DNA from: an uncultured Bacteroidota bacterium
GTDB lineage: Bacteria > Bacteroidota > Bacteroidia > UKL13-3
Length of the DNA stretch: 36,118 nt
Assembly: GCA_903910445.1 (NCBI GenBank)
Contig: CAIVZR010000039.1
Coordinates: 1-36,118 of the forward strand
Direction of reading: 5' to 3'
In this document: piece by piece, positions 1 through 18,717 of the stretch
How the letters are laid out: each line of letters opens with the position of its first letter
Numbering within the stretch: the stretch's first letter is position 1
Translations under genes and position numbers: made by a program
The notes under the pieces: generated by a model
Databases searched by the model: none
Seen by the model: the letters and a program-made list of their open reading frames with translations, nothing else
What the model was told of the DNA's origin: nothing

Positions 1-864
1 CATCAGAAATTATTGTACGTTCGATTGATGCAAAAACTAAACAAGCCATATAATATTGGAGATGTGGTGGGTTTGTCGAATACCTTGCCTGGGGGCGCTT
101 TATATTGGGGAGGTGTGGTTTATAATTATCAGTACGACCAAGCGGCCAATACACTATTAGCATTTGAAATTTTAAGTAAGGATAGTTCAGGACGTAACCT
201 GCTTCCAAATGTGAAAAAATATTTTAGTAGCGATAATTTCACTCGGCATACGCTTGCAAGAGCCAATCTCATTACACTTTATCTCAACGATTGGACTGCA
301 CATCATTCAAAAGATTCTTCATTATTTGGAAAGGTTGCTGTTGATGGTAGAACTTTGGCTTCCAAGGACTATCCTTTTACACGCACCTACCATGCCCATG
401 ATACCATTCGGATCACGCATCAAGGCAACGAAAGCTTCGTGAATATCATCACACAAAAAATTGAGGAGAAACCACAACCTGATGAAACGTTTTTCAAAAT
501 TAGAAGCTCCATCAATAAAAAAGGTGATACAATTAGCCTTGCTCCCGGACAAATTACAACCATTGAAGTAACTGTTGAATCGTTCAAAACGAATGATAAT
601 GTGATGCTTGAAATACCAATTCCTGCTGGGTTTAGCTATTATACCAAACCACAACAATCATACGGTGTGGAATCGCATCGCGAATATTATAACGACAAAA
701 CTTCAATTTTCTGCACCAGTATGCCACGAGGAAAGTATACCTTCGTGATACAAATTGTTCCAAAATTTTCGGGTGTATTTAGCTTGCCACCTGCAAAGGT
801 AGAACTGATGTATTATCCTGAAATCAGAAATAACGAAGTGCCTAAAACGATAGAAGTAAAATAG
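1..864 (+). CDS. Alpha-2-macroglobulin family protein, C-terminal part (5' end outside window)
   Basis: The reading frame is open from the first base, so this is the last 287 or so codons of a longer gene. The sequence resembles the C-terminal end of the very long alpha-2-macroglobulin-like proteins of Bacteroidota: a helical part around residues 5-110 (an AFEILSKDSSG segment and a following helix with NLITLYLNDW), then beta-rich domains with a repeated polar pattern (GKVAVDGRTL, then PGQITTIEVTVES) ending in a macroglobulin-like sandwich (IPIPAGFSY, PRGKYTFVIQIVPKFSGVFSLPPAKVELMYYPE). Family members are periplasmic or surface lipoproteins thought to trap proteases or support the envelope. 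The thioester region, if any, would lie upstream and cannot be checked. It converges with cphB, 17 bases away. Confidence 0.7.
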   Translation, partial: HQKLLYVRLMQKLNKPYNIGDVVGLSNTLPGGALYWGGVVYNYQYDQAANTLLAFEILSKDSSGRNLLPNVKKYFSSDNFTRHTLARANLITLYLNDWTAHHSKDSSLFGKVAVDGRTLASKDYPFTRTYHAHDTIRITHQGNESFVNIITQKIEEKPQPDETFFKIRSSINKKGDTISLAPGQITTIEVTVESFKTNDNVMLEIPIPAGFSYYTKPQQSYGVESHREYYNDKTSIFCTSMPRGKYTFVIQIVPKFSGVFSLPPAKVELMYYPEIRNNEVPKTIEVK

Positions 865-881
865 TAGCTAAGAATAAATTT

Positions 882-1745
882 CTATTGTTCTACTTTATTT
901 ATAGATAATTCGAAGATGCGGGTTTTGATATTATAACAATTGCCCGCCTCCATAATATGAACGATTAACCCTTCAACACTGATAGGTTGCTTATCTTCAA
1001 TATCGGCGATATTATTATGTCGAACATTTCGTCCGTCAACAATAGTAACTGCTCCGCGACCAATGGCCTCAAGTTCGCAGCCATTGCGAACAATGACCCC
1101 TGTATCTTCTCCGAGTCCCACACCAATAGCCCCAGGGTTGGCGGCTACAGCTTGTGCCAATCGAGAGAATCGTCCTCGCTTATCAAAATGCGAATCAATT
1201 ATTACACCGGGAAGGAAACCCAACCCTGTGGTGAGTTTTACTTCTCCTTTAAGATGTGCCTTACCCGCATTGCCTTCATAAATCATCGTTGCACTCATGG
1301 CCATAGCCCCAGCACTTGTTCCTGCAATGATGAATTTTTCGTCGGTATATCGTTGGTTGATGATATCTAAGAAGTCGGTGCCACCAAAAATAGAAGAAAG
1401 ACGCAATTGATTGCCACCGCTAAACATGAGGCACTGGCAATTTTTTAGTCGTTCAATATTTTCAGCAATCCCAACATCCATACGGTCGCGTATGCGAAGA
1501 TGACCTGCATTTTTATATCCAAGCTTTTCAAAAGCGTCTACGTAATTTTGGGCCACCTCATCAGGAATGGAAGAGGCCGTGGTAATCACTTCTATTCTAT
1601 CTTCATGACTGCTTAAAAAGTTCACAATATTTTTCAGGATTCCCAACTCCATGAAATTAAGTCTATTGCGCTCAATGATACCTGCTTCTAAGTCGGTACC
1701 TTTATCTTCTGCTCCACCTACTGGGATGAGTATTCCGTTAATCAT
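882..1745 (-). CDS. cphB: Cyanophycinase
   Basis: A 287-residue peptidase S51 family protein. Cyanophycinase cuts the storage polymer cyanophycin (multi-L-arginyl-poly-L-aspartate) into beta-Asp-Arg dipeptides. Visible motifs are the N-terminal LIPVGGAEDKG, SGGNQLRL at 109-116, the nucleophile elbow AGTSAGAMAMS with Ser144, and DSHFDKRGRFSRL near 184-196, all typical of the family. There is no signal peptide, so the enzyme should be cytoplasmic and act on internal granules. The length matches the usual 270-290 residues. It is divergent from cyanophycin synthetase across a 555-base spacer, which strongly supports the assignment over other S51 members such as peptidase E. Confidence 0.93.
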   Translation of the reverse strand: MINGILIPVGGAEDKGTDLEAGIIERNRLNFMELGILKNIVNFLSSHEDRIEVITTASSIPDEVAQNYVDAFEKLGYKNAGHLRIRDRMDVGIAENIERLKNCQCLMFSGGNQLRLSSIFGGTDFLDIINQRYTDEKFIIAGTSAGAMAMSATMIYEGNAGKAHLKGEVKLTTGLGFLPGVIIDSHFDKRGRFSRLAQAVAANPGAIGVGLGEDTGVIVRNGCELEAIGRGAVTIVDGRNVRHNNIADIEDKQPISVEGLIVHIMEAGNCYNIKTRIFELSINKVEQ

Positions 1746-2300
1746 AATGAAAACTTAAAATTGAGGTATCCCTTAATTTTAAAACAATTAAATTATACAA
1801 GCAAAAAAGTAATTTTTTATTAGTTATGAAGCAAGTAGTTTTCAACAGTATAGCCTCATTCGAGGTCGAAAGAACCGATATTATTAGTGATAGCAACCCA
1901 CTTTGAGAATTGACTACTTGTTAATTAAACACCCTTCCTTTTTTGAAATGATAGGATGCTTTTTATAAATTGCCTCAATTAATCACCTCAAAAGCAACAA
2001 ATCCTCAAATGAATTGATTAGATAATTTGTGGAATACATGGAATAAAATAGCTCATTTGTATCAAAAGTGATTTATGAATTTGAGTATTTATAATCAAAC
2101 TTATGATGCTTTTTACGATGCACTAAAGAAATTGAATTTAAATGATTCATTCTTAAGGAATCTTCTCCTCATTTCATCATACTAGCCATTTTCTTTTTTT
2201 ATATTGCACAAAAATAATTTTATTGTGAAATTTGGTATTTGTGAAACATACCCAATAGCTATAAAATTATGAATTCATAAAAATTAATTAAACCATTCCC
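1746..2300. other. AT-rich divergent spacer between cphB and cphA
   Basis: This 555-base stretch holds no recognised gene. It must contain the promoters of both cyanophycin genes; a weak -7-like element TATATTGC lies at 2200-2207 before cphA. An inverted repeat joins CAAGTAGT (1832-1839) with ACTACTTG (1913-1920), reinforced by CAA (1843-1845) and TTG (1910-1912), and encloses a short palindrome TTCGA-GG-TCGAA (1859-1870). Two short frames begin with ATG: 26 codons at 1826-1906 and 36 codons at 2075-2185, the second with an amphipathic look (DAFYDALKKLNLNDSFLRNLL). Neither is recognised and neither has a clear ribosome binding site, so they may be chance or decayed sequence. Confidence 0.5.
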
Positions 2301-4910
2301 ATGAATATCATCGATATAAAAGTAATGAAAGGACCGAACTACTGGAGCGTTCGTCGTCATCATTTAATTGTTATGCGCCTCGACCTAGAAGAAATGGAAG
2401 AGCGACCAACCAATACCATCGATGGTTTTCTGGAACGATTGAAGGCGATGTTCCCAACCATGTATGAACATCGTTGCAGTGAAGATAAGCCAGGTGGTTT
2501 TTTTTCACGCGTAGAAATGGGAACCTGGATGGGACATGTTATTGAACATATCGCCCTCGAAATCCAAACCTTGGCTGGTATGGATTGTGGTTTTGGACGT
2601 ACCCGCGAAACCAGTACCAAAGGGGTTTACAATGTGGTGTTTAGTTACTATGAAGAAAAGGCCGGTGCTTATGCTGCACGCGCAGCAGTGCGTATAGCGC
2701 AGGCATTAACAGACGGCACTGATTATGATTTGCCATCCGACATACAAAAATTGCGAGAGATTCGTGAGGATGATCGCTTGGGCCCATCTACAGGATCAAT
2801 TGTAGAAGAAGCGATCAAAAGAAAAATACCATATATCCGTCTCAATCGTTCTTCTCTTGTTCAATTGGGTTATGGTATCAATCAAAAACGCATTCAAGCC
2901 ACCGTTGCAAGCACTACAAGCAGTATCGCCGTAGAAATTGCATGTGATAAGGAAGACACAAAGAACCTCTTAGAAGCCGCAGAAATACCTGTTCCTAGAG
3001 GTCGTATCTGTGTAGATATGGACGACTTGGAAGCAGCAGTTGAACGAATTGGATATCCATTGGTTACCAAACCAATCAATGGAAACCATGGGAAAGGAGC
3101 CACCACCAACCTATTAAATTGGGAAGAAGTAGTAAGAGGTTATGAGGCTGCAAAAAAATATAATAGAAAAGTAATCGTTGAGAAATTCATTACCGGATAC
3201 GACCATCGTGTTTTGGTAATCAATTACAAATTTGTGGCAGCTGCAAAGCGCACCCCTGCAGCCGTTACAGGCGATGGGGTACATACCATTCAGGGGCTCA
3301 TCGATATTGTAAATCAAGATCCTCGCCGTGGTTATGGTCACGAAAAAGTGCTCACCGCAATTAAGGTCGACGATTTCACCTTAGATATCTTACAAGAAAA
3401 ACATTTAACACTTGAAAGTATTCTTCCTGCTGGCGAAGAGCTTTGGTTGAAACCAACGGCAAATATCTCTACGGGTGGAACTGCCACCGACATCACCGAT
3501 ATCGTTCATCCAAGCAATGTGTTTTTATGCGAACGTATTGCACGTATTATCGGTTTAGATATCTGCGGGATTGATATTATGGGTCCCGACCTGAGCAGCC
3601 CGATAACAGAGAATGGTGGCTCCGTGCTTGAAGTGAATGCGGCTCCAGGATTCCGCATGCATCTTGAGCCTACCGACGGTTTGGGAAGAAATGTAGCTGA
3701 ACCTGTAATCGATATGTTATATCCTCCAGGTGTGAGTGCACGTATCCCAATTATTGCGGTAACTGGTACCAATGGAAAAACTACCACCACCCGACTCATT
3801 GCACATATTCTAAAGCATATGGGGCATAAGGTTGGGTTTACAACCACCGATGGGGTATATATTCAAAATCAATTGATGATGCGTGGCGATTGTACAGGCC
3901 CTGTTTCGGCGGAGTTTGTTTTGAAAGATCCAACGGTTGATTTCGCAGTATTGGAAAGTGCTCGTGGAGGAATTCTTAGGGCTGGACTCGGATTTCATAA
4001 TTGTAATATTGGAATTGTAACCAATATCGCTGCCGATCATTTGGGCTTGCAAGGGATTGATACCCTTGATCAATTGGCTCGTGTGAAAGCAGTAATTCCT
4101 GAGAGTGTATTGCCTGAAGGTTATGCCATCCTGAATGCAGATGATGAATTGGTTTATAATATGAATAAAGACCTCAAATGTAAGGTGGCCTTTTTCAGTA
4201 TGAACGAAAACAATCAACATATTCAAACACACACACAAGCTGGCGGATTGGCCGCAGTGTATGAAAATGGGTATGTTACCATTATGAAAGGAACCTGGAA
4301 AATTCGTGTTGAGAAAGTGACCAATATTCCACTAACATTTGGTGGCAAGGCCGAATTTAATATCGCCAATGTGTTGCCAGCTATCTTAGCTGCACATATC
4401 AATAATTTCAAATTGGAAGATGTGAAACTCGCACTTCAAACCTTCATTCCTTCAGCGGTTCAAACACCAGGACGAATGAATATGTTCGACTTTAAAAACT
4501 TCAAAGTATTGGTCGATTATGCTCATAATGCCCACGGACTCAAGGCCATTGGAAAATTCATCGCCAAGTTGGATGCCACACCTAAAGTGGGAATCATTGC
4601 TGGCGTTGGCGATCGTAGGGATGAAGACACTATTGAATTGGGCGAAAATGCAGCTCAAATTTTCGACGAAATCATCATCCGACAAGATCGTAATTTGCGT
4701 GGTAAGAGCGACCAGGAAATTATTGATTTAATGCTTAAAGGCATCCATAATATCAATCCAGATAAGAAGGTAACTGTTATTCAAAAGGAACTTGAAGCGA
4801 TTAATTTCGCCATCACCAATGCTGTAAAAGGAAGTTTCATTACCATTTGTAGTGATGTTGTTCCCGATGCGCTAGAGCAGATTATGTTATTGAAAGAAGC
4901 CGAAGGGTAA
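2301..4910 (+). CDS. cphA: Cyanophycin synthetase
   Basis: An 869-residue, full-length enzyme (family usually 870-900) that elongates cyanophycin by adding aspartate to the backbone and then arginine to each aspartate side chain, using ATP. Three parts are visible: an N-terminal domain (about 1-160) with the HxxEH motif H79-V-I-E82-H83; an ATP-grasp domain (about 165-475) with KPINGNHGKG and the metal-site run EVNAAPGFRMH; and a Mur-ligase-like domain (about 480-869) with P-loop VTGTNGKTTTTRL, ARGGILRAG, and DYAHNAHG near 738. The intact P-loop argues for CphA1 rather than the dipeptide-using CphA2. It starts at an ATG after a long AT-rich leader and stands alone, followed by a hairpin at 4920-4949. 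Confidence 0.96.
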   Translation: MNIIDIKVMKGPNYWSVRRHHLIVMRLDLEEMEERPTNTIDGFLERLKAMFPTMYEHRCSEDKPGGFFSRVEMGTWMGHVIEHIALEIQTLAGMDCGFGRTRETSTKGVYNVVFSYYEEKAGAYAARAAVRIAQALTDGTDYDLPSDIQKLREIREDDRLGPSTGSIVEEAIKRKIPYIRLNRSSLVQLGYGINQKRIQATVASTTSSIAVEIACDKEDTKNLLEAAEIPVPRGRICVDMDDLEAAVERIGYPLVTKPINGNHGKGATTNLLNWEEVVRGYEAAKKYNRKVIVEKFITGYDHRVLVINYKFVAAAKRTPAAVTGDGVHTIQGLIDIVNQDPRRGYGHEKVLTAIKVDDFTLDILQEKHLTLESILPAGEELWLKPTANISTGGTATDITDIVHPSNVFLCERIARIIGLDICGIDIMGPDLSSPITENGGSVLEVNAAPGFRMHLEPTDGLGRNVAEPVIDMLYPPGVSARIPIIAVTGTNGKTTTTRLIAHILKHMGHKVGFTTTDGVYIQNQLMMRGDCTGPVSAEFVLKDPTVDFAVLESARGGILRAGLGFHNCNIGIVTNIAADHLGLQGIDTLDQLARVKAVIPESVLPEGYAILNADDELVYNMNKDLKCKVAFFSMNENNQHIQTHTQAGGLAAVYENGYVTIMKGTWKIRVEKVTNIPLTFGGKAEFNIANVLPAILAAHINNFKLEDVKLALQTFIPSAVQTPGRMNMFDFKNFKVLVDYAHNAHGLKAIGKFIAKLDATPKVGIIAGVGDRRDEDTIELGENAAQIFDEIIIRQDRNLRGKSDQEIIDLMLKGIHNINPDKKVTVIQKELEAINFAITNAVKGSFITICSDVVPDALEQIMLLKEAEG

Positions 4911-7351: not shown

Positions 7352-7929
7352 TGAATAGATATCTAAAAATCAGGTATCTCTTCGATCGGCTTATTGCCCT
7401 TTTGGTGCTTCCACTTTGCATCCCCATCCTGATGATTATTAGCCTTATTCAGTTTTTTGTTTTTGGAGAAATTATTTTTGTTCAACAACGAAGCGGCTTG
7501 AATGGAAAGGTTTTTACACTCTTTAAGTTTATTAGCATGCAATATGATGAAGAAAAAACAGAGGAGGAAAGAATCCCGGCATGGGGGCGTTGGATGCGAC
7601 GTACAGGCTTGGATGAACTCCCACAACTGCTTAATATCATCAGTGGGGAGATGGCATTTATTGGTCCTCGACCATTACTCGCCGAATACAATGCACTATA
7701 TAATTTGCAACAAAAAGAAAGATTAAATATAAAACCAGGAATCACCGGATATGCACAAGCTACCCATCGAAACGATACCACTTGGAAACAACGTTTTGAA
7801 CACGATTTGTATTATGTCAAGCACGCATCTTTATGGCTTGATTTGAAAATCCTTACCAAAAGTTTTTTGCATATTTTGAGGGGTTCTCCTTCAATAATTA
7901 TGAATAAATTTGAAGGTAATAGAGATTAA
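7351..7929 (+). CDS. Bacterial sugar transferase (PglC/WcaJ-like phosphoglycosyltransferase)
   Basis: A 192-residue monotopic phosphoglycosyltransferase, which transfers a sugar-1-phosphate to undecaprenyl phosphate. The N-terminal hydrophobic re-entrant helix (about 10-35) is followed by QQRSGLNGKVFTLFKFISM and the catalytic pair D66-E67, then TGLDELPQLLNIISGEMAFIGPRPLL at about 85-110, the family hallmark. In most relatives the motif before the catalytic pair reads KFRTM or KFRSM; here the arginine is isoleucine (I61). GTG start, one-base overlap with the WecA-like gene. Having two different priming enzymes in one operon is unusual; one may serve a different glycan or have shifted in substrate. 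Confidence 0.9.
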   Translation: MNRYLKIRYLFDRLIALLVLPLCIPILMIISLIQFFVFGEIIFVQQRSGLNGKVFTLFKFISMQYDEEKTEEERIPAWGRWMRRTGLDELPQLLNIISGEMAFIGPRPLLAEYNALYNLQQKERLNIKPGITGYAQATHRNDTTWKQRFEHDLYYVKHASLWLDLKILTKSFLHILRGSPSIIMNKFEGNRD

Positions 7930-7990
7930 ATGTTTAAACGACACATACAACTTTGACTTCCTACATTCAATCGATTTTTAAAAAGGATAA

Positions 7991-9169
7991 TTAATTAGCT
8001 CCTATAAAAGCTAAGAGTCCAACTCCAACTTTAAGTGCCTCCTCTTCAATATCGAATGTAGGGGTATGAACCGATGAGGTGATTCCCCTTGCTTCGTTGC
8101 GGGTCCCTAATCGATAAAAACAACTTGGTACTACTTGAGAGTAATAAGCAAAATCCTCAGCAGCCATCCAGATATCTAAATCAATTACATTTTCATGTCC
8201 TAAATATTCATGGGCTAACGATTTATTTTTCTGAGTGAGTGCCTCATCATTATAAAGAAATGGATATCCTTTTCTAATTTCAAATTCGCAAATTCCACCC
8301 ATGGCTTTGGCTAAATCTTCTGCCATCTGTTTCATGCGAATATGTGCTTCATTCCTCCATTTTTCATCGAGGGTTCTAAAGGTTCCTTCCAAATATACTT
8401 CATCAGGAATTACGTTGGTAGCACCATTGGCAATTACCTTTCCAAAGCTAAGCACTGTGGGCATTATCGGGCTAGCAACTCTACTTACTATTTGCTGTAG
8501 GGCAACAATAATATGAGAGGTAATTAAAACAGGGTCGATATTGTATTGAGGCATGGCACCGTGCCCCCCTTTACCTTTTACAGTAACGTAAAGTTCATCG
8601 GTTGAAGCCATGTACAATCCACTTCTGAAACCTACTTTACCGGCAGGTATCTGTGGCATTACATGCTGCCCATGCATGAATTTCACTTCAGGATTTTTAA
8701 GTACCCCATCTTTAATCATTAAGCTAGCACCGCCAGGAAGTTTTTCTTCGGCTGGCTGAAACACCAGCTTAATGGTTCCTTCCCACTCATCTTTTAATTC
8801 ATTTAAAATTTGTGCAGCACCTAAAAGCGAGGAGGTATGTACATCATGACCACAGGCATGCATCACTCCGGGATTGGTTGACTTGTAAGAAACATCGTTG
8901 GCCTCAACAATTGGCAGTGCATCCATATCCGCTCTAAGTGCACGAATTTTACTCTGAGGATTTTTTCCTTCAATAATTCCTACCACACCAAACCCTCCAA
9001 TATTTTTTGTATGCGCGATGCCTAATTCGGTGAGGCGAGCACTTACAAATGCAGCGGTTTTTTCCTCATGATAGGAGAGCTCTGGGTTACTATGTAAATG
9101 ACGTCGATAATTTACCACCTCCGGGTAAATTTCATTGCTTCGTTGTTTAATTTTATCTTTTAAGTCCAT
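7991..9169 (-). CDS. M20D family amidohydrolase (N-acyl amino acid hydrolase type)
   Basis: A 392-residue metallopeptidase-like enzyme of the hippurate hydrolase/IAA-amino-acid hydrolase/N-acyl-L-amino acid amidohydrolase group. Metal-binding and catalytic motifs are HACGHDVH with C106 and H108, PAEE with E141 and E142, MHGQHV, and the late DIWMAAEDFAYY. The dimerisation lid lies about 185-300. It has no signal peptide, so it should act in the cytoplasm, freeing amino acids from acyl or amide conjugates; the exact substrate cannot be read. It follows the M1 peptidase gene by 14 bases on the same strand, suggesting one peptide-use operon. Confidence 0.9.
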   Translation of the reverse strand: MDLKDKIKQRSNEIYPEVVNYRRHLHSNPELSYHEEKTAAFVSARLTELGIAHTKNIGGFGVVGIIEGKNPQSKIRALRADMDALPIVEANDVSYKSTNPGVMHACGHDVHTSSLLGAAQILNELKDEWEGTIKLVFQPAEEKLPGGASLMIKDGVLKNPEVKFMHGQHVMPQIPAGKVGFRSGLYMASTDELYVTVKGKGGHGAMPQYNIDPVLITSHIIVALQQIVSRVASPIMPTVLSFGKVIANGATNVIPDEVYLEGTFRTLDEKWRNEAHIRMKQMAEDLAKAMGGICEFEIRKGYPFLYNDEALTQKNKSLAHEYLGHENVIDLDIWMAAEDFAYYSQVVPSCFYRLGTRNEARGITSSVHTPTFDIEEEALKVGVGLLAFIGAN

Positions 9170-14206: not shown

Positions 14207-15538
14207 CTAGAACCGTTTTCCAACTCCAATCACCACTTGCATTTGCCAAGGGTATTCGCGGAGCCAGCGATCATTTTTAGAGAGACTGGTTAAGGCAATT
14301 TTAAATTGTGGAGCCAGGGTATATTCTACATTTCTGCGAGCCTTATACATGAAACCTCCTCCAGCTATTAAATTGAAAGCATCTTTATAATTCAAATAAT
14401 TAAAAGAACTGCTGCTGCGACTCACCTCTGCTACCACAAACCCAACATTGTCGGCATCAACCAACTTCACATTGGCGCCACTTAAATACATATATGATAA
14501 TCCGATATTCATCACATAGCTTAAGTTATTGTACTTAAGGGTAGGACGATTGAATTCAAAAATCAAAGGAATCTCTCTCAAACTATATTTATTAGTATAT
14601 GAATTCGCATTCCCTGAAACTATAGTATCAGCTCGTTCAGAAACATTGGCATCAGAAATATTAGGATCGAGCTGAGATAAGGCAATATCCTTTCCGCAAT
14701 TACATGGAGATTGCTCTGGGGTTGCGTTATAGTATAGTGTTTGATTTACCTGAGTGAAATAATATCCTGTTTTGATACGAATATCCTGGGTAATATTCAT
14801 TTTCAATCCGAAACCAGTGGTATAACTAAATCCAACATGACTAATACTATTGCGCAGGTTACGATTGTTAGAAGCAGTTTTGCTTCCCAAGAAACTGGAG
14901 AGCGGGCTTTTAAGAATTATATTACTGAACCCTGGTGCATACAATATTTCCAAAACATATTTATTTTCTAAAGTAGTGGCCGGTTTTAATGGTGTTTGTG
15001 TATCCAATAATTTTGCTGCATCAAGCGGTAATACTTTGGTTTTGGTATAGAAGAGTTTTAGGTCGGGTAGATGCAGTAGTGAAGCAAAATCCGCCTTTCT
15101 TGTAGGCTTAACTAAAGTTTCAGCAGGTGTTGTAATGGCAGGAACTACAGGTGTCGGAGTAATTGGAGAAGTGACAATGGCTTGAGAAGCAACAGGAGGT
15201 TGTGAAACTACAGACCCTGAAGGAACAGTATTAGATATTGTGGCTTCTGACGATGTCGCTAATGGCATAGCAACAATGTTCGAAGCCTTTGAATTATTAG
15301 CATTGTTGGCAGGTGCTTCAATGCTTGGAATAGCCACCACAGGTGAGGTACTAGCTTGATGTTCGAATAACCACCACGCGGCAGTAGTGCCAGTGATAAA
15401 AAGTGGCAAGAGCCAAAGAAGATAACGACGTTTCTTCTTGACGGGCATCTCGGCGTTCAATCGTCCCAGTAGCTGCTGCCATGTAGCATGCTGAGGCATT
15501 TCGCGGTAGTCTTCAAATTTTTCTTTTAAGGAGCTCAT
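14207..15538 (-). CDS. Putative dual-membrane-spanning anti-sigma factor (Dma-like)
   Basis: A 443-residue protein with three parts: a short N-terminal cytoplasmic segment (1-38, with the helix HATWQQLLGRLNAE), one inner-membrane helix (39-58, YLLWLLPLFITGTTAAWWLF), and a long P/A/S/T/V-rich linker (60-145) leading to a beta-barrel-like region (about 190-443: alternating strands such as YVLEILYAPGFSNIIL, FGLKMNITQDIRIKTGYYFTQV, ending in WQMQVVIGVGKRF with a terminal Phe). It follows the ECF sigma gene by two bases. This layout fits the dual-membrane-spanning anti-sigma factors reported in Bacteroides thetaiotaomicron (recalled from memory): sigma binding inside, a barrel in the outer membrane. 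No FecR or zinc-finger anti-sigma motif is visible. Confidence 0.7.
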   Translation of the reverse strand: MSSLKEKFEDYREMPQHATWQQLLGRLNAEMPVKKKRRYLLWLLPLFITGTTAAWWLFEHQASTSPVVAIPSIEAPANNANNSKASNIVAMPLATSSEATISNTVPSGSVVSQPPVASQAIVTSPITPTPVVPAITTPAETLVKPTRKADFASLLHLPDLKLFYTKTKVLPLDAAKLLDTQTPLKPATTLENKYVLEILYAPGFSNIILKSPLSSFLGSKTASNNRNLRNSISHVGFSYTTGFGLKMNITQDIRIKTGYYFTQVNQTLYYNATPEQSPCNCGKDIALSQLDPNISDANVSERADTIVSGNANSYTNKYSLREIPLIFEFNRPTLKYNNLSYVMNIGLSYMYLSGANVKLVDADNVGFVVAEVSRSSSSFNYLNYKDAFNLIAGGGFMYKARRNVEYTLAPQFKIALTSLSKNDRWLREYPWQMQVVIGVGKRF

Positions 15539-15540
15539 GA

Positions 15541-16080
15541 TTAATTTTTAGTAACAAAAAATGTTTTTTCAATTAATTTCTTCAAATATGTCTTACTTCG
15601 ATTAAGTTGCGATTTACTGGTGCCCTCACTAATTCCCATGGCCTCAGAAATTTCTTTATGGGTATACCCTTCGATGGCATGCATGTTTAAAATCATCCTG
15701 TACCCTTCTGGCATGCCTTCCATTAGTTTTAAAATATCACGTGCACTGATGGAGTCAATTACATAATCATCCACCCCACTATCTTGTGAATCAAATTCAT
15801 CGAAAGGCATTTTGCTTAGTTTGCGATAATGTTCAATTGCGGTGTACACCATGATTCGTTTCATCCATCCTTCAAAAGAACCACTAGCGGTATAACCAGA
15901 GATGAGTTTATATATTTTCATAAACCCTTCCATCATTACGTCTTCGGCTTCGGCACGATGCTTCACATAGCGCAAACAAATTCCCAGCATCAGCCCTGCG
16001 TACTTTTTGTAAAGTCGCTCTTGGCTTTTGCGGTTGTTTTGCCTGCACCCTTCTATCAGTTCAGCTTCGCTTTCGTGCAT
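15541..16080 (-). CDS. RNA polymerase ECF sigma factor
   Basis: A 179-residue sigma-70 family factor with only regions 2 and 4. Region 2 lies about 25-85 (YAGLMLGICLRYVKHRAEAEDVMMEGFMKIY ... FEGWMKRIMVYTAIEHYRK) and region 4 about 119-167 (MPEGYRMILNMHAIEGYTHKEISEAMGISEGTSKSQLNRSKTYL, a clear helix-turn-helix). It would direct polymerase to a small set of envelope-related promoters, perhaps including its own: TGCAAC and CGAT separated by 17 bases lie 25-52 bases upstream. It is co-transcribed with a predicted membrane anti-sigma partner. Confidence 0.95.
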   Translation of the reverse strand: MHESEAELIEGCRQNNRKSQERLYKKYAGLMLGICLRYVKHRAEAEDVMMEGFMKIYKLISGYTASGSFEGWMKRIMVYTAIEHYRKLSKMPFDEFDSQDSGVDDYVIDSISARDILKLMEGMPEGYRMILNMHAIEGYTHKEISEAMGISEGTSKSQLNRSKTYLKKLIEKTFFVTKN

Positions 16081-16105
16081 AATGCGTTAGTGAATTTACA
16101 CAATA

Positions 16106-16132
16106 ATCGTAATAACCATCCATTTCGTTGCA
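16106..16132 (-). promoter_or_regulatory. Candidate ECF-type autoregulated promoter
   Basis: On the minus strand TGCAAC (16132-16127), 17 bases, CGAT (16109-16106) resemble the AAC/CGT promoters of ECF sigma factors and have their usual spacing. It is flanked by the inverted pair CTAACGCA (16134-16141) and TGCGTTAG (16083-16090). Transcription would start near 16098, about 18 bases before the sigma ATG. Confidence 0.5.
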
Positions 16133-17772: not shown

Positions 17773-18717
17773 ATGAATTCTATTTGCGAATTATTCAAAA
17801 TTAAATATCCTGTTATTCAGGCGGGAATGATATGGAACAGTGGCTGGCGCCTGGCTTCCGCTGCCTCTAATGCTGGTGGACTTGGACTCTTGGGTGCAGG
17901 CAGCATGTATCCCGAAGTGCTTAGAACGCATATTCAAAAGTGTAAAGCGACTACCAGTATGCCATTTGGCGTCAATGTGCCATTACTCTATCCTGATATT
18001 GATAAAATCATTTCAATAATTATTGAAGAAGGGGTGAAAATTGTATTCACCTCGGCAGGGAATCCTGCCACCTGGACGAAAATTTTGAAGGATCAAAATA
18101 TCACTGTGGTGCATGTGGTGAGCAATTTAAAATTCGCACTCAAAGCGCAGGAAGCGGGTGTAGATGCGATTGTAGGAGAGGGTTTTGAGGCGGGAGGTCA
18201 TAATGGCCGCGAAGAAACCACCACCCTTTGCTTGATACCCTTGCTTCGTGAAAAAATTGCTGTACCCATCATTGCAGCAGGTGGCATTGGCTCAGGGGCC
18301 GCCATGTTAGCAGCGATGTCACTGGGCGCACAAGGTGTTCAGGTAGGCAGTCGTTTTGCAGCAAGCATCGAATCGAGTGCTCACGATAATTTTAAACAAG
18401 CGATTATTCACGCCAAGGATGGTGATACCCAGCTCATGCTGAAAAAATTAGCTCCTGTGCGATTGCTAAAAAATAAGTTTTATGAAGAAGTGAAGGCTGC
18501 TGAAGCTGCGTGTGCCAATGAGGAAGAACTTAAAAAACTATTAGGCCATGCCCGCGCCAAACACGGTATGTTTGAAGGGGATATGGAAGCAGGTGAATTG
18601 GAAATCGGACAAATATCAGCCACCATTCATAGCATAAAATCGGTTCAGGAAATTATGGATGAAATAATTGGAGAATATGAAATGTTGGTGAAGAAAGGAT
18701 TCGAATCGTTTCGTTAA
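17773..18717 (+). CDS. Nitronate monooxygenase / FabK-type FMN enzyme
   Basis: A 314-residue FMN-binding TIM-barrel enzyme. The opening FKIKYPVIQAGMIWNSGWRLASAASNAGGLGLLG, the PFGVNVPL strand, GEGFEAGGHNG with catalytic His143, AAGGIGSGAAMLAAMSLGAQGVQVGSRF (phosphate-binding part) are shared by nitronate monooxygenase (detoxifying propionate-3-nitronate and similar) and enoyl-ACP reductase II (FabK). The two cannot be separated by eye. Its TAA stop overlaps the stop of the convergent purQ by three of its bases. Confidence 0.85.
   Translation: MNSICELFKIKYPVIQAGMIWNSGWRLASAASNAGGLGLLGAGSMYPEVLRTHIQKCKATTSMPFGVNVPLLYPDIDKIISIIIEEGVKIVFTSAGNPATWTKILKDQNITVVHVVSNLKFALKAQEAGVDAIVGEGFEAGGHNGREETTTLCLIPLLREKIAVPIIAAGGIGSGAAMLAAMSLGAQGVQVGSRFAASIESSAHDNFKQAIIHAKDGDTQLMLKKLAPVRLLKNKFYEEVKAAEAACANEEELKKLLGHARAKHGMFEGDMEAGELEIGQISATIHSIKSVQEIMDEIIGEYEMLVKKGFESFR

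Follow-up and report, generated by a model that had tools for sequence, protein, structure and literature searches.

An ECF sigma factor and its Dma-type partner, a predicted anti-sigma factor reaching from the cytosol to the outer membrane in an uncultured Bacteroidota bacterium

The DNA analysed here (the window) is a stretch of 36,118 nucleotides from an uncultured Bacteroidota bacterium (assembly GCA_903910445.1, contig CAIVZR010000039.1). It probably encodes a Dma-type sigma/anti-sigma switch, in which an ECF sigma factor would be clamped by residues 1-38 of its partner, the same chain would run on to a barrel in the outer membrane, and the pair would be autoregulated. New here are the probable sigma-contact residues, a conserved promoter element and sequence evidence for modularity at both ends of the partner.

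Results

A conserved sigma factor gene and its partner

A sequence-only reading of the window had proposed an ECF sigma factor and an adjacent partner made up of a short cytoplasmic segment, one membrane helix, a P/S/T-rich linker and a barrel-like end. The gene pair was borne out with exact coordinates, and all four parts of the partner were found, the barrel as a prediction. The features are as follows.

16104..16131, minus strand: promoter-like element GCAACG-N16-CGATTA upstream of the sigma gene (conservation)
15541..16080, minus strand: ECF sigma factor gene (Das-like), 179 aa (Pfam Sigma70_r2 and Sigma70_r4_2; kin of das2-type sigma)
15814..16014, minus strand: sigma region 2, residues 23-89 (Pfam match and coupling analysis)
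15589..15741, minus strand: sigma region 4, residues 114-164 (Pfam match and coupling analysis)
14207..15538, minus strand: Dma-type anti-sigma factor gene, 443 aa (layout, conservation, das2-dma2-type kinship)
15425..15538, minus strand: predicted cytosolic sigma-binding module, partner residues 1-38 (motif and couplings)
15368..15421, minus strand: inner-membrane helix, partner residues 40-57 (hydropathy, genus alignment)
14969..15364, minus strand: periplasmic tether, partner residues 59-190 (composition; variable in genus alignment)
14210..14968, minus strand: predicted eight-stranded outer-membrane beta-barrel, partner residues 191-443 (Pfam in relatives, low-confidence model, VIA-align)
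14696..14704, minus strand: CxC, partner residues 279-281, in the loop predicted to join strands 3 and 4 at the surface

Both Pfam sigma regions are matched by the window sigma (Sigma70_r2, E 9.8e-14; Sigma70_r4_2, E 1.1e-15), and the partner gene starts 2 bases past the end of the sigma gene. A search with the partner matched 58 of 117 relatives at E 0.001. All four other genomes of the genus that were searched contain the partner (identity 97, 53, 52 and 47%), and 27 of 30 loci, counting that of the window, have a sigma ORF immediately upstream, so the pairing goes beyond chance. Two of the three exceptions (L010 and L011) begin at a cut end and the third (L020) is unexplained. The neighbourhood is also kept in G002, G003 and G004, with genes resembling 2-phosphosulfolactate phosphatase, lipocalin and NMO on one side and xerD and aroQ on the opposite side; the contig of the fourth genus genome (L032) covers the xerD side only. 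A search of viral contigs found no relatives. At E 1e-57 the matching sigma subfamily was detected in 291 of the 395 genomes from the class.

Membrane helix and tether

The cytosolic part of the partner comprises the 38 residues before the helix and has no cysteine. The helix of the window protein is only mildly hydrophobic (KD 1.49 over 18 residues, under the 1.6 cut-off), with values of 1.73, 1.97 and 2.02 in three genus orthologues. It is followed by a tether containing 13% P, 11% S, 13% T and 14% A, the sequence of which varies among genus orthologues in the alignment.

It is plausible that a signal passes directly along one intact chain. An alternative, to which we give a low but appreciable probability, is that periplasmic cleavage shortly after synthesis splits the partner, its barrel and sigma-binding part then acting as two fragments rather than as a single chain. 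Self-cleaving FecR-type regulators provide a precedent for two fragments, and the length, low complexity and sequence variability of the tether would suit such processing; however, the covalent layout and the long tether are kept in relatives while the tether sequence varies, as for a spacer. No FecR domain is found among the partner's Pfam matches up to E 1.

A predicted outer-membrane barrel at the C-terminus

Residues 191-443 are predicted to form an eight-stranded outer-membrane barrel. An AlphaFold run on the full-length partner with four sequences gave no usable model (pLDDT 28). The barrel alone, again with four sequences, gave eight strands at low confidence (pLDDT 42, pTM 0.35), at about residues 194-209, 232-248, 253-269, 320-330, 339-351, 387-401, 404-416 and 431-441, with the short turns and long loops of the OmpA-type pattern. 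The best Foldseek rows for this model were Ail, OmpA, a designed barrel, OmpX and OmpA again (E 2e-4 to 8e-4). Re-ranking of the Foldseek matches with VIA-align placed NspA first (Z 13.7, rmsd 3.7, 148 aligned), followed by OprF (13.1) and OmpA (12.8), and the first 15 rows were all outer-membrane or designed transmembrane barrels; the low model confidence weakens these structural matches. A PDB sequence search with the family profile had a best E of 0.083.

Could the C-terminal domain instead be a soluble periplasmic beta domain, making the partner an ordinary inner-membrane anti-sigma factor that senses periplasmic stress? We think this improbable. The Pfam match of the window protein by itself is sub-threshold (OmpA_membrane, 0.0082), confidence in the barrel model is low, shuffling of the strand pattern gave no significant result (154 of 1000), and of the 218 partners 58 complete ones are short-ended as judged by length. 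On the other side, 15 of the 22 relatives in the alignment match OMP_b-brl_2 with E values of at most 0.1 (best 6.1e-8), the VIA-align rows above are barrels throughout, and a terminal F, the final residue of the window protein, is present in 71 of 141 long partners. The barrel assignment of the sequence-only reading therefore stands, within the low confidence of the OmpA-type model.

The N-terminal module and its couplings to the sigma factor

To examine the sigma-binding end we collected 284 loci, 11 of them without a sigma ORF and one without a partner, containing 227 distinct sigma/partner pairs, of which 218 passed filters on sigma score, presence of a hydrophobic stretch and absence of masked residues close to the start. 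One motif is common to the partners, [FIL][DE]xx[FLI][KR]xxL followed after a short gap by PSxxxWxxIxxxL. Its W is found in 88% of the 151 single-module sequences having a residue at that position, and in the alignment A2 the equivalent W20 of the window partner is invariant across 22 rows. Residues 1-38 probably form two short helices, A at about 3-12 and B at about 18-30, with limits taken from the motif and a very low-confidence model.

A profile of this module matches 210 of the 218 partners and 3 of 218 shuffled sequences, but was trained on 150 of the same 218, making partners outside the training set the fairer count: 60 of 66 non-training partners, and 42 of 53 held-out partners versus 0 of 53 after shuffling. 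L295 and L298, from genomes already in the first set, were taken out of the held-out set. In all 11 held-out partners lacking the module, the called start lies at least 88 bases past the sigma stop; these called starts are probably wrong, and the proteins were counted as misses.

Mean-field direct coupling analysis was applied to the 211 pairs with a module of at least 4 bits. Of the top 20 inter-protein couplings, the module accounted for 16, the membrane helix for 4 and the tether for none, against column shares of 42%, 27% and 30%, respectively; the helix and tether controls were positioned by the helix start and not by homology, an arrangement that on its own depresses their couplings and so favours the module. 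In window numbering, the strongest couplings to helix B were sigma M50-L23, R17-L27 and M54-L23, and those to helix A were I116-L4, L117-Y11 and L131-L4. In the sigma factor, region 2 residues 46, 50 and 54, plus residue 17 just outside that region, are thus coupled to the partner on its helix B side, and region 4 residues 116, 117, 118 and 131 to helix A.

The top coupling reached 1.61 for the real pairs and no more than 1.36 in eight re-pairings. In 42 held-out pairs from other genomes, eight preset residue pairs had a mean percentile of 0.70, compared with 0.47 ± 0.09 after re-pairing, a value equalled in none of 60 re-pairings; in this small set the ranks of single preset pairs ranged from 7 to 4411 of 4816. 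When all 253 pairs were used, seven of the eight ranked in the top nine and I136-L23 dropped to 285. Shared ancestry is controlled in part only, since re-pairing breaks ancestry too. Within that limit the covariation supports binding of the sigma factor by residues 1-38, and the proposal that the N-terminal segment holds the sigma factor has survived this comparison. That the partner is instead a structural tether between the two membranes, sharing an operon with the sigma factor without holding it, is very improbable: the partial ancestry control leaves it some room, but it is opposed by the sigma-module covariation and by the B. thetaiotaomicron Dma1 and Dma2 deletions, which work through their sigma according to the part of PMC13088901 available to us.

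The arrangement can be compared with known anti-sigma classes. Class I is defined in the accessible part of PMC7406223 by a domain of 50 residues or more, and its zinc type by Hx3Cx2C; the 38-residue, cysteine-free segment of the partner falls outside both. For the class II protein CnrY on CnrH, the same source places the first helix on sigma4 and the second on sigma2. The window partner may resemble CnrY in its short, probably two-helix segment and, by the strongest couplings, in the same helix split, and its 38 residues lie below the 50 of class II, yet when the top 30 couplings are tabulated as helix A/B against region 4/2 the association does not reach significance (p 0.12), nor does it with the first module (p 0.49) or with single-module pairs only (p 0.33).

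A promoter element upstream of the sigma gene

The element GCAACG-N16-CGATTA upstream of the sigma gene is common to four genus genomes, this one included, and in G002 and G004 the upstream region is otherwise much diverged around it. At one mismatch the window contains 1 match versus 0.09 expected, and the exact element occurs once in this genome. Across 271 distinct regions upstream of related sigma genes, GCAAC was present in 175, whereas shuffled regions averaged 19.6 and the runner-up among the permuted pentamers reached 49; GCAAC was chosen from the four genus sequences, which are themselves among the 271, and the regions are not independent because they include close relatives. GCAAC paired with a -10-like sequence, the alternatives for which were picked after inspecting the upstream sequences, showed a spacer peak at 17 (91 of 271), with 11 at 16 and at most 9 at any other length from 10 to 25. 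The -10 sequence differs by group, being CGATTA here, TGACTA in the two-module group and CATCTA or CGTCTA in many others. In this genome GCAAC lies close upstream of 4 of 9 sigma genes, and both das2-type loci (described below) carry, by eye, GCAGC, 16 bases and CGTCTA. This conservation suggests that the sigma factor positively autoregulates its own operon through GCAACG-N16-CGATTA.

A search for a regulon beyond the operon gave no consistent excess across the genomes. One-mismatch copies of the element in G000 to G004 numbered 19, 22, 16, 24 and 13, versus 10, 23, 15, 10 and 22 for the reversed pattern. As the excess is limited to G000 and its near relative G003, with none in G001, G002 or G004, no regulon is claimed.

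Kinship with das2-dma2

The available part of PMC13088901 describes Dma2 as an anti-sigma segment, a membrane helix, a disordered tether and a barrel, and places it in an operon with the ECF21 sigma Das2, near DUF4943, DUF4858 and NMO-like genes. A DUF4943 search at E 1e-10 identified 6 of 295 genomes, with strong matches in G134 and G094, and 1 of 14 named controls, Bacteroides ihuae; at the same threshold this genome had no match. Both strong loci (L379 and L380) have a sigma gene, a gene for a partner of 351-356 residues and the DUF4943 gene in series, followed by DUF4858 and NMO according to Pfam in L379 and by an NMO-like gene in L380. We call them das2-dma2-type because this order fits the published das2-dma2-DUF4943-DUF4858-NMO, and infer that they come from Bacteroides.

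The L379 partner carries the N-terminal module at 11.6 bits and an OMP_b-brl match (2.6e-7); in the L380 partner the module falls below the 4-bit mark, with similar residues visible by eye. The window and L379 sigmas share 33% identity (E 3e-30), and hhalign of the family profile A2 against the L379 partner (E 1e-4, probability 58) covered the N-terminus, with its tryptophan, and the membrane helix. Both sigma pairs have an NMO-like gene nearby, at 17773-18717 in the window and 3451-4389 in L379, the two being 61% identical. We considered on this ground that the window pair might be the das2 orthologue, and rejected it: searched against this genome, the das2-type sigmas best match a paralogue, L069 on C37, with 145 bits versus 97 for the window sigma, and 147 versus 102 with the sigma of the second das2-type locus.

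These comparisons support the window pair as a new member of the known Dma class, a paralogue of das2/dma2. The sequence-only reading had likened the pair to the Dma class reported for vesiculation. Class membership is upheld by the four-part layout, the sigma identity and the N-terminal motif shared with a das2-dma2-type operon, whereas the link to vesiculation is not, since by best match the window sigma is a paralogue of das2. As far as the accessible text of PMC13088901 goes, the likeness to Dma2/Das2 (BT_1558/BT_1559) extends to the predicted sigma-binding segment, helix, tether, predicted barrel and adjoining ECF sigma; the window partner differs in having the CxC in its predicted surface loop, a possible redox or metal site, and its genome in having no DUF4943 match. 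Within A2, all 4 genus sequences retain the CxC and the other 18 lack it.

Repeated modules and exchanged ends

Nine sigma genes of this kind are present in this genome at E 1e-30. We scanned seven sibling partners with Pfam, the gene downstream of the L070 sigma (C23) being masked as N. Four have OMP_b-brl or OMP_b-brl_2 (one above the curated cut-off) and one has PKD and CHU_C; a barrel match was absent from the Pfam scan of two, one of them cut by the locus end. The PKD/CHU_C case is a sibling pair on C5 (L382 7669-9481), the anti-sigma factor of which (gene at 7669-8937) ends in PKD and CHU_C, without a barrel. Next comes the gene of a large PKD/CHU_C protein, with a longest ORF of 1597 residues that overlaps 7669-8937 by 8 bases; its likely start is about 40 bases past the end of the anti-sigma gene.

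At the other end of the partner the module itself is repeated. At 6 bits, 49 of 218 partners have two copies and two have more, and held-out partners have up to four and five. Tandem arrays of three to five copies are seen among L276 (C37), L128, L246, L252, L288, L336 and L338; four modules are visible by eye in the C37 protein (L276), and those of L246 repeat at the 2-bit threshold only.

C-termini were surveyed in a random 100 of 244 complete partners. Pfam at E 0.01 gave OMP_b-brl_2 in 36, OMP_b-brl in 15, CHU_C in 17 and Por_Secre_tail in 2, and with NCBIfam at E 0.001 type B sorting was matched by 16 and type A by 2. A motif count over 271 pairs identified CHU_C ends in 28. Anti-sigma factors with type IX secretion ends were not described in the titles and abstracts of the literature found, a scope that mostly excludes subscription papers. 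Together these counts are evidence, from sequence comparison, that both ends of the partner are modular, the sigma-binding end repeatable and the surface end swappable.

Two further groups were noted. The short-ended partners end no more than 260 residues from the helix start (e.g. L118, L124, L133 and L140), several of them in a common stretch near NRNYEE. A sigma tail with NEPF occurs in 32 sigmas (L012-L030 and others), all paired with two-module partners. The median sigma tail is 18 residues with two modules versus 14; an association between longer tails and two modules is not claimed because it is confounded with one clade.

Discussion

Covariation, hydropathy and the low-confidence barrel model support the proposal that the partner is an anti-sigma factor spanning both membranes. 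In the off state, residues 1-38 would clamp the sigma factor at the inner membrane, with helix A bound to region 4 and helix B to region 2, the place where core RNA polymerase binds (PMC7406223, accessible part). One helix would span the inner membrane, the tether would cross the periplasm, and the eight-stranded barrel would sit in the outer membrane with its long loops outside. A change at the outer membrane, for instance a ligand at the loops or failed barrel assembly, would then free the sigma factor by pull or proteolysis, and the freed sigma factor would transcribe at least its own operon from the conserved element.

In FecR-type cell-surface signalling an outer-membrane event likewise governs an ECF sigma factor, with receptor and anti-sigma factor as separate chains. 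The proposed outer-membrane control of the window sigma is similar, but here the partner would act as one chain, with no FecR match in Pfam. CnrY is not known to be joined to a barrel, whereas the window partner is linked to a predicted one; the likeness to CnrY is one of layout, not of sequence comparison.

The modularity of both ends allows a wider reading, which we offer as a tentative one with the odds against it. Dma would be one branch of a Bacteroidota family built from modules, where the C-terminus of the anti-sigma factor is itself a client of an outer-membrane machine, and the switch reports delivery of that client rather than a ligand outside. BAM would then serve the barrel ends and type IX secretion the CHU_C ends. 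Since in this genome the gene of a PKD/CHU_C surface protein directly follows, the CHU_C-type switch could couple the synthesis of a secreted protein to its export, for which flagellar FlgM offers a parallel.

How most ECF sigma factors of Bacteroidetes are restrained is an open question, because a class I anti-sigma neighbour accounts for only 6% of them (PMC7406223, in its available part). The presence of the module in 210 of 218 partners points to residue pairs to mutate and a promoter element to look for, and the module family would permit a family-wide test of whether information from the outer membrane reaches transcription through a single chain.
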